64,000 nt of DNA from Rhodospirillum centenum SW (GTDB lineage: Bacteria; Pseudomonadota; Alphaproteobacteria; Azospirillales; Azospirillaceae), in the NCBI RefSeq assembly GCF_000016185.1, contig NC_011420.2, forward strand, positions 2,252,501-2,316,500, given 5' to 3'. A program made the position numbers and the translations under genes. The notes below the pieces were generated by a model. That model had not been told where the DNA came from and did no database searches. It was given only the letters and a program-made list of their open reading frames with translations. Shown here one piece after another: positions 4,445 through 53,931 of the stretch. Positions within the stretch are counted from its first letter, which is position 1. Every line of letters begins with the position of its first letter.

Positions 4445-4469
4445 TCTGCAATTAAAAACGATTTGCAGA
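4445..4469 (+). promoter_or_regulatory. Inverted repeat in front of the PepSY-DUF2271-DUF4198-ApbE genes
   Basis: TCTGCAA (4445-4451) and TTGCAGA (4463-4469) form perfect 7-base arms around an 11-base AT-rich spacer, about 75 bases before the first gene of the module. This is the only AT-rich stretch nearby, so it probably overlaps the promoter. The half-site AACGATTTGCA resembles alphaproteobacterial Fur-type sites, which would fit an iron-linked module, but that link is inference. Confidence 0.4.
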
Positions 4470-4543
4470 GACGCCGGAGGCTGTGGCATGCAGCGGGTGC
4501 CGTTCCCCGCCGGCCCCCTGCCCGTCGCCTCCCGCCGTCCTGC

Positions 4544-5221
4544 ATGCGCCATCCGCCCATCGCCAAGATCGACCCCCGCCCGCACCCCGTGGCGGCCGAC
4601 CCGCGGGCCGGGCGGGCCGGCTTCTGGAAGCGGCAGGCCCGCACCTGGCACTGGATCTCCGGCGCGATCTGCCTGCTGGGCATGCTGGGATTCGCCGTCA
4701 CCGGCATCACCCTGAACCACGCCGCCGACATCCCGGCCGAGCCCGTCGTCAGCGAACGGCAGGCGCAGCTTCCGGAGCCGCTGCTGGCCGAACTGGCGGC
4801 CGGGCCGGAGAAGGGCCGCAGCGACGCCCTGCCCCCCGCGGTCGCGGCCTTCGTTGAGGAGGCGCTGGACATCGGCCTGTCCGGCCGCCCCGCGGAGTGG
4901 AGCCCGGACGAGGTCTATGTCGGCCTGCCGCGGCCGGGCGGGGACGCCTGGCTGTCCATCGAGCGCGAGAGCGGCGCCGTCGTCTACGAGCTGACCACCC
5001 GCGGCGCCATCGCCTATCTGAACGACCTGCACAAGGGCCGCCACACCGGCAAGGCCTGGTCCTGGTTCCTCGACATCTTCTCGGCGGCCTGCATCGTCTT
5101 CTGCCTGACCGGGCTGTGGCTGTTGCAGATCCACGCCGGCAAGCGCCCCTCCACCTGGCCGCTGGCCGTGGCCGGCCTCGCGCTGCCGGTGCTTCTTCTC
5201 GTCTTCTTCGTCCATGCGTGA
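4544..5221 (+). CDS. PepSY-type transmembrane protein, probable heme-binding electron carrier of a flavinylation module
   Basis: This membrane protein has one N-terminal helix (WHWISGAICLLGMLGFAVTG), a periplasmic PepSY-like segment ending in a YLNDLHKGRHTG motif, and two closely spaced C-terminal helices. Histidines sit at the helix edges (HWI, LNH, LHKGRH, QIH), as in PepSY-TM proteins that bind heme b in the membrane. I chose the internal ATG at 4544 (225 residues) over 4463 because the extra N-terminal stretch is arginine- and proline-rich and unlike the family. It is followed closely by DUF2271, DUF4198 and ApbE genes. The likely role is passing electrons across the membrane to the flavinylated partner. 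The family is recognisable, but the function is inferred from context. Confidence 0.75.
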   Translation: MRHPPIAKIDPRPHPVAADPRAGRAGFWKRQARTWHWISGAICLLGMLGFAVTGITLNHAADIPAEPVVSERQAQLPEPLLAELAAGPEKGRSDALPPAVAAFVEEALDIGLSGRPAEWSPDEVYVGLPRPGGDAWLSIERESGAVVYELTTRGAIAYLNDLHKGRHTGKAWSWFLDIFSAACIVFCLTGLWLLQIHAGKRPSTWPLAVAGLALPVLLLVFFVHA

Positions 5222-5228
5222 GGACCCG

Positions 5229-5744
5229 ATGCGTGCCCTTCTGATGATCGCCGGACTCGGCCTGCTGGGCGGCCCCGCCCTGGCCGACGAGATGGTGGTG
5301 GAGGTCGAGCTTCCCCAGCTCAAGGTGGCCGAGTACCACCGCCCCTATGTCGCCGTCTGGGTCGCCCGGCCCGACCAGTCCGTCGCCGCCACGCTGGAGG
5401 TCTGGTACGCCCAGGAGGACGGCCCCGAGGGCGAGGGCGAGAGCTGGCTGAAGGACCTGCGCCAGTGGTGGCGCCGCATCGGCCGCACGCTGGAGATGCC
5501 GGTGGACGGCGTCTCCGGGCCGACCCGCGCCCCCGGCGCCCATGTCCTGACCTATGCCGGCGACGCCGGCCCGCTGAAGGCGCTGCCGCCGGGCGAGTAT
5601 GTCCTGCAGGTGGAAGCGGCGCGCGAGGTCGGCGGCCGCGAGCTGGTCAGCATCCCCTTCACCTGGCCCGGCACGGCCAAGGCCGAAGCCAGGGGCGAGA
5701 CCGAGCTGGGCGGCATCCGCCTGACCCTGGTGCAGGCACCCTGA
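5229..5744 (+). CDS. DUF2271 periplasmic protein with predicted FMN-attachment motif
   Basis: This 171-residue protein has a signal peptide (MRALLMIAGLGLLGGPALA) followed by a beta-rich DUF2271 domain. Residues 93-99 read DGVSGPT, matching the D-x-x-S/T-G-x-T/S pattern that ApbE enzymes flavinylate. The predicted acceptor is Thr99, codon 5523-5525. An in-frame ATG at 5214 overlaps the upstream stop, but a GAGGA sequence placed just before 5229 supports the later start. It lies seven bases after the PepSY gene and in the same operon as an ApbE-type transferase, which supports its role as a periplasmic flavoprotein. The direction of electron flow and the final acceptor are unknown. Confidence 0.78.
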   Translation: MRALLMIAGLGLLGGPALADEMVVEVELPQLKVAEYHRPYVAVWVARPDQSVAATLEVWYAQEDGPEGEGESWLKDLRQWWRRIGRTLEMPVDGVSGPTRAPGAHVLTYAGDAGPLKALPPGEYVLQVEAAREVGGRELVSIPFTWPGTAKAEARGETELGGIRLTLVQAP

Positions 5745-5804
5745 GCGGGCACGGCGGCCCGCGCTCCCACGACCGACGCTGAACAAGAAAAGGGGTTTGG
5801 AACA

Positions 5805-6623
5805 ATGACGCGCACCGCGACACGGGCGACGCTGCTGGCGGCCCTGCTTCTGGCCACCGCGACCGGCACCGCCCAGGCCCATCGCATGTGGCTGGAGCCC
5901 TCCACCTTCACCCTGTCCGGCACCGACCAGTGGATCACGGTGGACGGGGCGATCTCCAACGACCTGTTCGTGCCCAACCATGTGCCGCTGCCCTTGAACG
6001 GGCTGTCCGTCACCGGGCCGGACGGTGCCCCCGTGGCGCTGGAGAACGCCCACCGGGGCAAGCTGCGCTCCGTCTTCGACCTGAAGCTGGAGAAGGACGG
6101 CACCTACCGCATCGCCGAGGAGGGAGCCGTCTTCATCGCGCTCTGGAAGGAGGACGGCGAGCAGAAGCGCCGCCGCGGCACCCTGGAGGAACTGCGCAAG
6201 GCCGGGCTGGAGTCCAAGCCGGAGGCGAAGTTCATCCAGTCCATGCGGCGGGTGGAGACCTTCGTCACCCTGGGCGCGCCGAACGACACCGCCCTGAAGC
6301 CGACGGGCAGAGGGCTGGAACTGCTGCCCGTCACCCACCCCAACGACATCGTCGCCGGGGAGAAGGCCACCCTGAAGCTGCTGCTGAACGGCGAACCGGC
6401 GGCGGGCCTCAAGGTCACCATCGTGAAGGCCGGCGACCAGTACCGCGACAAGCCCGCCACGCAGGAGCTGGAGACGGGGGCCGACGGCGCCGTCGCCTTC
6501 ACCGTGGCGGAGCCCGGCCGCTACTGGCTGAACGCCCAGTCGCGCGGCCGGACGACGGTCGAGGGGCTGGAGATGGACCGCATGATGTCCTACGTGGCGA
6601 CCGTCGAGGCCGCCGCCCCGTGA
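5805..6623 (+). CDS. DUF4198 domain periplasmic protein
   Basis: This 272-residue exported protein has a signal peptide ending at AQA and a mature N-terminus starting HRMWLEPS, the conserved opening of DUF4198 proteins. They contain Ig-like domains and are often found beside metal-uptake genes. The C-terminal half (roughly 170-270) has the carboxypeptidase-regulatory or CalX-like beta-sandwich pattern (GEPAAGLKVTIVKAGDQYRD). The histidine at the mature N-terminus could bind a metal. An AAGGGG sequence precedes the ATG. The stop codon overlaps the apbE start (TGATG), so the genes are translationally coupled. The exact role within the flavin module is unknown. Confidence 0.75.
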   Translation: MTRTATRATLLAALLLATATGTAQAHRMWLEPSTFTLSGTDQWITVDGAISNDLFVPNHVPLPLNGLSVTGPDGAPVALENAHRGKLRSVFDLKLEKDGTYRIAEEGAVFIALWKEDGEQKRRRGTLEELRKAGLESKPEAKFIQSMRRVETFVTLGAPNDTALKPTGRGLELLPVTHPNDIVAGEKATLKLLLNGEPAAGLKVTIVKAGDQYRDKPATQELETGADGAVAFTVAEPGRYWLNAQSRGRTTVEGLEMDRMMSYVATVEAAAP

Positions 6624-7693
6624 TGACAGGGGGCCGCGCCGTGACCGGGGGCCGCGCCGTGGCCGGGGACCTCCTGGCGACCGAGGCCCGCCCCCTGATC
6701 CCGGTGGCGCTGGCGCGCGGGGAAGCCCGCCGCCCGCCGCCGGACAGCATCCGGCTGGCGCTGGCCGGCCGGACCATGGGGACGGACTGGTCGCTGCGCT
6801 GCCACGCCCCGGCCGGAACCGACCCGGCGGGGGTGGAGGCGGCGGTGCAGGCGGTCTTCGCCGGCACCATCGCGGAGATGAGCACCTGGGAGCCGTCCTC
6901 CTTCATCTGCCGCTTCAACGGGGCACCGGCCGGCACGACGCTGGAGATGCCGGCCGGGTTCCGGCAGGTGCTGGCGGCGGCCCTGGAGGTGGCGGCGGCA
7001 ACGGACGGCGCCTTCGATCCCTGTCTGGCCGCGGAGGTCAACCGCCGCGGCTTCACCCCGGCGCCCTGGGTTCCGCCCGGCGCTCCCGGACCACAACCGC
7101 CCCCGCACGCACCGGGCGGCTGGCGGGCGCTGGCCGCCGTGACCGGAACGGGGGGTGGAGCCGGGGCCGGAGCCGAGCGCATCACCCAGCCGGGCGGACT
7201 CTGGCTCGACCTGTCCGCGATCGCCAAGGGCCATGCCGTGGACGGCATGGGCCACGCCCTGCGCGCGCTGGGCATCGAGTGCTTCCTGGTGGAGATCGGC
7301 GGCGAGTTCGTCGGCGCCGGGATCAAGCCCGACCTGACCCCCTGGTGGGTCGCCCTGGAGAACCCCGACGGCACGCCCGGCGGCTGGCGGGTTGCCCTGT
7401 GCGGCTGCGCGCTCGCCAGTTCGGGCGACTATCGCCGCCGCCATGTGCGGGACGGCCGTCCGGTCAGCCACATCGTCCGCCGGCCGGGGGCGGCCGACCG
7501 CTACGGCGACCTTGCCAGTGTCAGCGTCGTGGCGGCGGACTGCATGCGCGCCGACGCCTGGGCGACGGCGCTGTTCGCCGCCGGCGACGCGGACGGGCTG
7601 GCGCTGGCCGACACCCACGGCATCGCCGCCCTGTTCCAGTACCGCGACGCCCCGCCCCGCTGGTCCGCGGCCCTTGGGGTCATGCTGGAGTAA
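6623..7693 (+). CDS. apbE: ApbE-type FAD:protein FMN transferase
   Basis: The enzyme moves FMN from FAD to a Ser or Thr of target proteins, here presumably Thr99 of the DUF2271 protein. Family motifs are present in order: GRTMGTDWSL, MSTWEPSSFICRFN, DLSAIAKGHAVDGMG, FLVEIGGE, ASSGDYRRRH, a divergent HIVRRPG in place of HIIDPRTG, and DAWATALFAAG near the C-terminus. The gene starts inside the stop of the DUF4198 gene. An 18-bp repeat (6623-6640 and 6641-6658) duplicates the start region, so GTG codons at 6641 and 6659 are also possible starts. No convincing signal peptide or lipobox is visible at any of them, unlike most periplasmic ApbE proteins. A proline- and glycine-rich insert sits in the middle of the protein. 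Confidence 0.88.
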   Translation: MTGGRAVTGGRAVAGDLLATEARPLIPVALARGEARRPPPDSIRLALAGRTMGTDWSLRCHAPAGTDPAGVEAAVQAVFAGTIAEMSTWEPSSFICRFNGAPAGTTLEMPAGFRQVLAAALEVAAATDGAFDPCLAAEVNRRGFTPAPWVPPGAPGPQPPPHAPGGWRALAAVTGTGGGAGAGAERITQPGGLWLDLSAIAKGHAVDGMGHALRALGIECFLVEIGGEFVGAGIKPDLTPWWVALENPDGTPGGWRVALCGCALASSGDYRRRHVRDGRPVSHIVRRPGAADRYGDLASVSVVAADCMRADAWATALFAAGDADGLALADTHGIAALFQYRDAPPRWSAALGVMLE

Positions 7694-7703
7694 GGCGCCG
7701 CGC

Positions 7704-8150
7704 CTACACCTCCACGAGGTTGTCCACTTCCTTGAAGGCCTGGAGCAGGCGCACCGCCCGGTGCGGGGCGCCTGTCCAGTGCGCCGGATCGAAATCGTCC
7801 TGGAGGAAAGAGCTGAAGCCGGCCCGGTCCGACTCCGGGATGCGGTCCACATGGGCGAAACCCATGCTCCAGCCGGCGAAGGCCCGTCCCTCCGGCCGGA
7901 ACTTGATCAGGGTCGTCACGTCGGTATGGCGCGGGTCCAGGCAGATACGGGAATAGAGCCCGTGGACCGCATGGTTCGGGCCTTCCAGGGCCTGCATGAA
8001 GCGGCCATGACGAAACAGCAGCAGTCCCGTGATGCCGACCCGGCTGTTGGCGGCGCGCGCCTGGCGCAGCAGCGACAACAGCTCGGCATCGCCCATCGGG
8101 ACCACCGCCCGACTGACATAGACAAGGCAGAGCAGCGCGTCGTCGGTCAT
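7704..8150 (-). CDS. BLUF-domain blue-light photoreceptor
   Basis: This is a stand-alone 148-residue FAD-binding sensor of blue light. The domain begins at LLCLVYVSRA and contains the flavin-switch residues expected of BLUF proteins: Tyr11, Asn35, Gln53, and Trp94 with Met96 in WSMGF. After the domain there is only a short helical tail, with no enzyme or DNA-binding output, so it presumably signals by binding a partner. It is convergent with apbE, with ten bases between the stops. The open frame extends upstream, but the ATG at 8150 gives a normal BLUF N-terminus. The partner cannot be told from the neighbours. Confidence 0.88.
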   Translation of the reverse strand: MTDDALLCLVYVSRAVVPMGDAELLSLLRQARAANSRVGITGLLLFRHGRFMQALEGPNHAVHGLYSRICLDPRHTDVTTLIKFRPEGRAFAGWSMGFAHVDRIPESDRAGFSSFLQDDFDPAHWTGAPHRAVRLLQAFKEVDNLVEV

Positions 8151-53527: not shown

Positions 53528-53628
53528 TCCCTACGGCGACCCGCGGCAGGCTCTCCTCCCGCACTCTTGCAAGTCAGTCTCAGTTGCGGTAGCGGAGTCG
53601 GGTATCCGCCGCATCGGGAGACTGTGCC

Positions 53629-53931
53629 GTGAAGGTCGAGAACCCCTGCGTGAAGCTCTGCAAGTTCGATGCCCGGGGCATGTGCCTGGGCTGCTTCCGC
53701 GACAAGGCGGAAGTGAAGGGCTGGAAACGTCTGGGGGAGGCGGAGCGCAGCGCCGTGCTGGAGCGCATCCGCCCGCTGGTCGCCCTGCACCCGGCGGGCA
53801 AGGACAGCGCCGGCAGACGCGGCAAGGAGCGCAAACGGCTGAAGAAGCTGGACCGCCGGATCGCCAGGCTGGAGCGCAAGCTGGCGGAGGCGCGCAGCGA
53901 GCGCGCCCGGCAGACGGCCGTCGCGGCCTGA
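53629..53931 (+). CDS. DUF1289-domain protein
   Basis: This 100-residue protein has an N-terminal four-cysteine DUF1289 motif (NPCVKLCKFDARGMCLGCFR), followed by a helical region ending in a basic coiled coil (LKKLDRRIARLERKLAEARSERARQ). The start is a GTG at 53629. DUF1289 proteins are small and are thought to bind iron-sulfur or zinc. The function is unknown. It lies between nudC and the convergent ferritin-like gene. Confidence 0.82.
   Translation: MKVENPCVKLCKFDARGMCLGCFRDKAEVKGWKRLGEAERSAVLERIRPLVALHPAGKDSAGRRGKERKRLKKLDRRIARLERKLAEARSERARQTAVAA

Follow-up and report, generated by a model that had tools for sequence, protein, structure and literature searches.

A putative Fur-controlled ferric-iron reductase operon of Rhodospirillum centenum, with a Pro-type flavin acceptor motif and an ApbE devoid of signal peptide

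The 64,000-nucleotide stretch of Rhodospirillum centenum SW DNA analysed here (the window) carries four closely spaced genes, all on the plus strand, which probably form a Fur-controlled operon for a periplasmic ferric-iron reductase feeding Fe(II) uptake. They encode a PepSY_TM_like_2 membrane protein (225 amino acids (aa), positions 4544-5221; PF16357, E 1.1e-77), a periplasmic DUF2271 protein with Thr99 as predicted acceptor of flavin mononucleotide (FMN) (171 aa, 5229-5744; PF10029, E 9.7e-48), a periplasmic DUF4198 protein (272 aa, 5805-6623; PF10670, E 7.3e-53) and an ApbE FMN transferase (356 aa, 6623-7693; PF02424, E 4.4e-54), the DUF4198 stop and the ApbE start overlapping by one base. 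In the Pfam search of the window all four matches were far over the cut-offs, which confirmed the set of adjacent genes named in the original prediction, made from the sequence and its open frames; an NCBIfam search gave nothing beyond one ApbE match below the cut-off and one chance match. Meheust et al. 2021 already described this operon type as a PepSY-like flavinylation cluster, and the operon of the window adds one member to a known, probably iron-reducing system. What merits follow-up is rather the place of flavinylation and the occurrence of Pro in the acceptor motif, the mismatch of compartment between the ApbE and its presumed substrate mattering more than the operon itself.

In a search for the same gene order in related genomes, proposed as a check with the original prediction, the PepSY, DUF2271 and DUF4198 genes stand together, in this order, in all of the 66 loci compared (the window, 54 relatives from one protein scan of genome contigs, and 11 loci from the window's taxonomic order), and ApbE follows in fourth place in 60 of them; because of this regularity the arrangement is more than chance. 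The 11 loci are those which, among the 13 found over the cut-off besides the window's in a Pfam search of that taxonomic order (82 genomes), matched all four genes by tblastn; the other two, L067 and L068, matched none. Class- and phylum-wide searches added 80 loci and brought the wider survey to 145 relatives, which are not independent of one another, many being from Sphingomonadales.

The clusters of Meheust et al. have in common with the window a PF16357 membrane protein, DUF2271, ApbE and a secreted DUF4198 protein, and differ from it on two points: the window has SGPT instead of SGA[ST], and an ApbE without signal peptide (PMC8238504; this and the other papers are cited here from passages of their text). 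Their definition asks for PF03929 or PF16357 in a flavinylation cluster and for at least one target gene with a signal peptide; in the window PF16357 lies beside DUF2271 and ApbE, and DUF2271 has a signal peptide according to our own heuristic. Meheust et al. counted 3220 PepSY-like clusters, 2833 of them with DUF2271 and 1500 with DUF4198, and tied them to iron reduction; they also report that the DUF2271 protein of Amantichitinum is flavinylated by its own ApbE and that a Thr-to-Ala change abolished flavinylation (PMC8238504). The four-gene order of the window is found again in Caulobacter crescentus (CC3059-CC3063, or CCNA_03155-03159), which differs from the window in that a fifth gene, annotated as sulfite reductase (NADPH) flavoprotein, stands beside ApbE (PMC3751524, PMC12004947). 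Fur binds to the Caulobacter operon, whose expression rises strongly under iron limitation (PMC3751524), and insertions in it lower fitness in ethylenediaminetetraacetate (EDTA) (PMC12004947); the DUF2271/DUF4198 genes of Alteromonas are described as iron-responsive too.

In the mechanism which we propose, an FMN that the operon's own ApbE would have attached covalently to Thr99 of DUF2271 would receive electrons from PepSY_TM_like_2. This protein would bring them through the inner membrane, probably by way of two b-hemes with its conserved histidines as ligands. The DUF2271 flavoprotein would then reduce periplasmic Fe(III), or a chelate of it, DUF4198, with its predicted mature N-terminal His, would bind metal, and Fe(II) would enter via a transporter such as the FeoB of the genome. 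In the original prediction neither the direction of electron flow nor the acceptor was held to be established. This stands for the direction, which still has to be inferred; the acceptor can now be narrowed, with moderate confidence, to iron, because the module type is described, the Caulobacter homologue is Fur-regulated and a Fur-like box lies upstream of the operon here.

This box, a putative Fur-type operator at 4449-4471 (no strand assigned), overlaps the 21-bp palindrome-like TGCAATTAAAAACGATTTGCA (4447-4467). Upstream stretches were taken for the window and for 108 of the 145 relatives, the rest having no recognisable PepSY start or not enough sequence. The dyad TGCGA-N5-TCGCA was present in 17 of these 109 stretches versus 0 in shuffles. 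With a first matrix (9 sites) the window site scored only 6.8 and was the third best of the window. A refined matrix, trained without the window, found a site in 97 of the 108 relatives and, as a control, in 4 of 109 shuffled stretches; the former count has some circularity, since the refinement used those very stretches of the relatives. Its consensus, ATTGCGAATnATTCGCAAT, is one that we take to be Fur-like. The window site scored 12.3 with the refined matrix, second in the 64 kb, the next one being at 2.4. The host genome, a single contig of 4,355,543 bases, has three FUR-family matches, 39 matches to the TonB-receptor plug domain and one to FeoB_N (E 4.8e-56); for the 39 plug-domain matches 18 upstream stretches were taken, and in 6 of them the same matrix gave sites scoring from 16.8 to 26.3. 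As a candidate for a genome-wide Fur box, TGCAA-N11-TTGCA was rejected: it has a single occurrence in the 4.36-Mb genome and, with up to two mismatches, is found 5 times in the window versus 9.91 expected.

The top Fur-like site of the window is another one (53564-53586, score 15.5), just upstream of frame 53593-53928 (plus strand). The product of this frame has the cysteine pattern CxxxC...CxGC and is presumably DUF1289-like.

The presumed flavin carrier, DUF2271, begins with a hydrophobic stretch and an AxA site, which by eye make up a Sec-type signal peptide of about residues 1-19. The motif DGVSGPT does, as first reported, occupy residues 93-99, counted in the 171-aa product with its start at 5229 (codons 5505-5525, plus strand, with 5523-5525 for Thr99). 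The accompanying claim that it fits the acceptor pattern of ApbE enzymes holds for the Thr and fails for the preceding residue, which is Pro and not the Ala of the motif D-x-x-[ST]-G-A-[ST] given in a review (PMC12052999). The motif was surveyed in 100 proteins, i.e. that of the window and those of the 99 loci, out of 145, with an alignable DUF2271 (46 were dropped): the acceptor Thr is invariant (100/100), the initial Asp is present in 84, and the residue before the Thr is either Ala (68 proteins) or Pro (32). A tree computed from the columns outside the motif, few in number and leaving many forks unresolved, has 12 changes of the Ala/Pro state, of which at least five are forced by well-supported branches; the window DUF2271 is on a long end branch. 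Every Pro-type DUF2271 adjoins an ApbE (30 by profile, L060 and L062 by tblastn), and the 14 surveyed proteins for which no ApbE was found by profile divide into 12 with Ala and 2 with Pro, these two being at cut loci where tblastn found the ApbE. Judged on the alignments, SGPT is a recurrent natural form of the motif and not a one-off error, since Pro accounts for 32 proteins out of 100, has a repeated origin on the tree and goes with an adjacent ApbE. A search of DUF2271 against the PDB sequences returned only a chance match (E 0.42).

A few peculiarities of DUF2271 loci are worth recording. In one group of DUF2271-DUF4198 loci, mostly with PepSY, the acceptor motif is kept and no ApbE adjoins (L178, L181-L184, L187, L189-L191, L195, L197, L199, L200, L202 and L206). 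A divergent second class of DUF2271 is seen in L213 (3861-8706; gene names by eye). Its DUF2271 is accompanied by genes for a small protein that is exported, for a cytochrome b561-like protein and for a membrane protein of 735 aa similar to a PepSY-reductase fusion, with an ApbE, again without signal peptide, about 2.5 kb downstream; the spacing is similar in L156-L159, L209-L212, L214, L215, L218-L220 and L222. Frames of 267-269 aa in L069-L079 (Azospirillaceae, genus g3) have a weak, partial DUF2271 match below the cut-off, at profile positions of about 62 to 121.

Five histidines of the PepSY protein, His36, His59, His163, His197 and His224, are conserved in 64, 59, 66, 63 and 65 of the 66 loci, respectively. 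In the structural model (mean predicted local distance difference test score, pLDDT, of 85), which has long helices at 20-62, 170-200 and 202-224, all five are placed near the ends of these three helices. The initial remark that histidines at the helix edges are suited to heme is thus supported, and on the model the five residues are candidate heme ligands on either side of the membrane. The FoxB-like PepSY siderophore reductases (cited in PMC11334425 and PMC12424826) likewise have conserved histidines that suit heme, and reduce iron; beside them the window protein is a short form, with three long helices, for which the fold search listed no FoxB match.

The role of metal holder suggested for DUF4198 at the outset gained support from its model (mean pLDDT 94), which matches a metal-binding fold in Foldseek (E 4.7e-15) with solved metal-bound members. 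These are Zcp with Cu, Zn or Co bound (PDB 9MHI-9MHO; Z 20.8 and below (VIA), 17-20% identity) and Ni-bound IsDUF4198 (PDB 9GCB, PMC12537917; Z 15.8, 16% identity), the next match being at 6.7 only. With the latter the window protein also has the N-terminal His in common: the predicted cleavage AQA|H makes a His (codon 5880-5882) residue 1 of the mature protein, and it is found in 65 of the 66 loci (one gap). IsDUF4198 binds Ni through His1 and His18, with a dissociation constant (Kd) of 18 nM (PMC12537917). Here a Trp stands at position 18, in the window protein as in 58 of the 66 loci, and the subgroup to which the window protein belongs must therefore use other ligands if it binds metal; its own conserved His34 (62/66) and His153 (63/66), numbered as in the mature form, are candidate metal ligands. 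Such relatives raise the question of whether the same electron chain could serve another metal, i.e. Ni, Co, Zn or Cu (for example by reduction of Cu(II) to Cu(I)), DUF4198 then being a metal chaperone. We consider this unlikely: solved proteins of the DUF4198 fold do bind Ni, with the above Kd, and Zn, Co and Cu, but the His18 ligand of the Ni protein is replaced in the window subgroup by His34 and His153, 97 of 108 relatives have a Fur-like box, as does the window, and the Caulobacter homologue is Fur-bound and iron-responsive (PMC3751524). Ferric iron stays the substrate that we prefer.

Several observations nevertheless weigh against a working ferric-iron reductase of this kind. The operator-like site of the window is diverged and weaker than that of most relatives. 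No TonB-receptor gene adjoins the operon, which has on its 5' side two genes that we take, from their translations, to be sucC and sucD, and a BLUF gene on the other. None of the solved relatives of DUF4198 fold considered here, seen with Ni, Zn, Co or Cu, has iron bound. For the PepSY model there is no convincing PDB match (best Foldseek E 0.03, best Z 6.0), and the FoxB fold (7ABW) is not among the PDB matches listed, which look chance-like, so that the fold search gave no support for a likeness of the window protein to FoxB; the PepSY profile has only a weak match among the PDB sequences (E 0.062). The SGPT of the window lies outside the literal published motif [S/T]GA[S/T], and in another protein an Ala-to-Val change before the acceptor brought flavinylation down to about 50% (PMC12052999). 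No NAD(P)H reductase gene adjoins the operon, unlike in Caulobacter; among the relatives, such a gene is fifth, beside ApbE, in at least 26 (a lower bound, because L173 was missed though reductase-positive by Pfam) and absent in 54, 15 loci being too short. Finally, the window ApbE has deviations in 10 of the 66 conserved columns, the second most of 98 proteins (median 3), and the deviations include the Asp and the Pro of the HxxDPxTGxP loop; because of them it may, as far as its sequence tells, be weak in activity. Together with the long end branch of the window DUF2271 and the diverged operator, these deviations would also suit a module decaying in the host genome, with an ApbE losing its function and a DUF2271 that is not flavinylated. 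We find decay very unlikely, given that the four frames are intact, that neither Thr99 nor any of the five PepSY histidines is lost, and that the ApbE, aligned to the solved 6nxi and 5mgy, retains its catalytic Ser, His and Asp (see PMC12052999 for the roles of these residues). The preferred reading is still that of an active reductase operon.

Where the flavin is attached is a separate question. The N-terminus of the window ApbE (from MTGGRAVTGG to TMGT) has no hydrophobic stretch, and there is none in the open frame just upstream. Signal peptides were evaluated with our own hydrophobicity score (not SignalP), at cut-offs of 1.6 and 1.9; the ApbE start was placed by the xMGTxW motif, and L021, L154 and L185, where the motif is absent, were left out. 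Among PepSY-DUF2271-ApbE loci, the ApbE passed in 6 of 95 relatives at 1.6 and in 4 at 1.9 (7 and 5, respectively, with a less exact placement of the N-terminus), and three only, those of L002, L012 and L176, have a real signal by eye. At 1.6 the same score was passed by 95 of 98 DUF2271 and 98 of 100 DUF4198 proteins, and by 16 of 20 other ApbEs of the class (23 loci, 3 of which were dropped for too little sequence before the domain), at least two of the four failing ones showing a twin-arginine stretch by eye. The host genome itself has a second, NosX-like ApbE with a clear twin-arginine translocation (Tat) signal and, by eye, nosL- and nosY-like neighbours. Near the ApbE start, 62 of the 95 relatives have the peptide R-[VIL]-[LIA]-[VIL]-P, versus a mean of 0.7 and a maximum of 4 in 500 shuffles; the window ApbE has only a looser form, RPLIP. 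As a side observation, signal-less DUF2271-linked ApbEs, for example those of L144, L160, L161 and L179, have R-V-L-[VI]-P, often followed by a Pro-rich linker. Tat export of DUF2271 was rejected as a general route, a loose RRxhh being present in 6 of 98 N-terminal stretches, four times upstream of the likely start.

Because the ApbE has no signal peptide while DUF2271 has one of Sec type, FMN would most simply be attached in the cytoplasm, before or during export of DUF2271, a point on which we are less certain. The full form of this proposal, in which a dedicated signal-less ApbE flavinylates the DUF2271 precursor in the cytoplasm, the covalent flavin then crosses Sec, and the N-terminal R-h-h-[VIL]-P conserved in many such ApbEs docks the enzyme to the precursor, the translocon or PepSY, is put forward tentatively, as a possibility that deserves attention. 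Were it true, the ApbE would meet the motif on an unfolded precursor, which might explain the tolerance to Pro, the covalent flavin would have to pass through Sec, no periplasmic supply of flavin adenine dinucleotide (FAD) would be needed, and the place where 'extracytosolic' flavinylation happens would change. That flavinylation is periplasmic after all, either through export of this ApbE without a recognisable signal or through a NosX-like ApbE from elsewhere that modifies DUF2271, seems rather doubtful to us. The second, Tat-signalled ApbE of the genome in its nos-like cluster and the retention of the acceptor motif in relatives without an adjoining ApbE would agree with it, as would the export signals on the ApbEs of L002, L012 and L176 and on at least three ApbE-DUF2271 fusions (L204, L205 and L207), where the ApbE is therefore outside. 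On the other hand, 60 of 66 loci have ApbE in fourth place, where absence of a signal is the rule, and we know of no non-classical export route for such an ApbE.

A cytoplasmic attachment also has to be set beside what is known of other ApbEs. The fumarate reductase that is the substrate of the Klebsiella pneumoniae ApbE is cytoplasmic. That ApbE is cytosolic and signal-less like the window one, but its fumarate reductase is soluble whereas the presumed substrate in the window is Sec-signalled (cited in PMC12052999). A 2025 review has ApbE typically membrane-anchored in the periplasm, with secreted targets and few cytosolic exceptions (PMC12052999), and, against the generality of the signal-less form, Meheust et al. 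mention a signal-truncated cognate apbE for the tested species (PMC8238504). A signal-less ApbE with an exported substrate was not described in the open-access literature matches listed, nor in the passages of PMC8238504, PMC11334425 and PMC12052999.

Two further features complete the picture. Downstream of the operon and convergent with apbE is the gene for a BLUF blue-light sensor (7704-8150, minus strand; PF04940, E 2.8e-28). At C1:497276-498622 (minus strand; L253) there is a 777-aa frame with 41% identity to the reductase; no matrix site was found upstream of it in C1:498600-500200. By eye, this frame has a PepSY-like start followed by flavodoxin-like and NAD-binding reductase parts, and it lies about 4.5 kb from a TonB-receptor plug match at C1:492500; it is possibly a separate ferric reductase.

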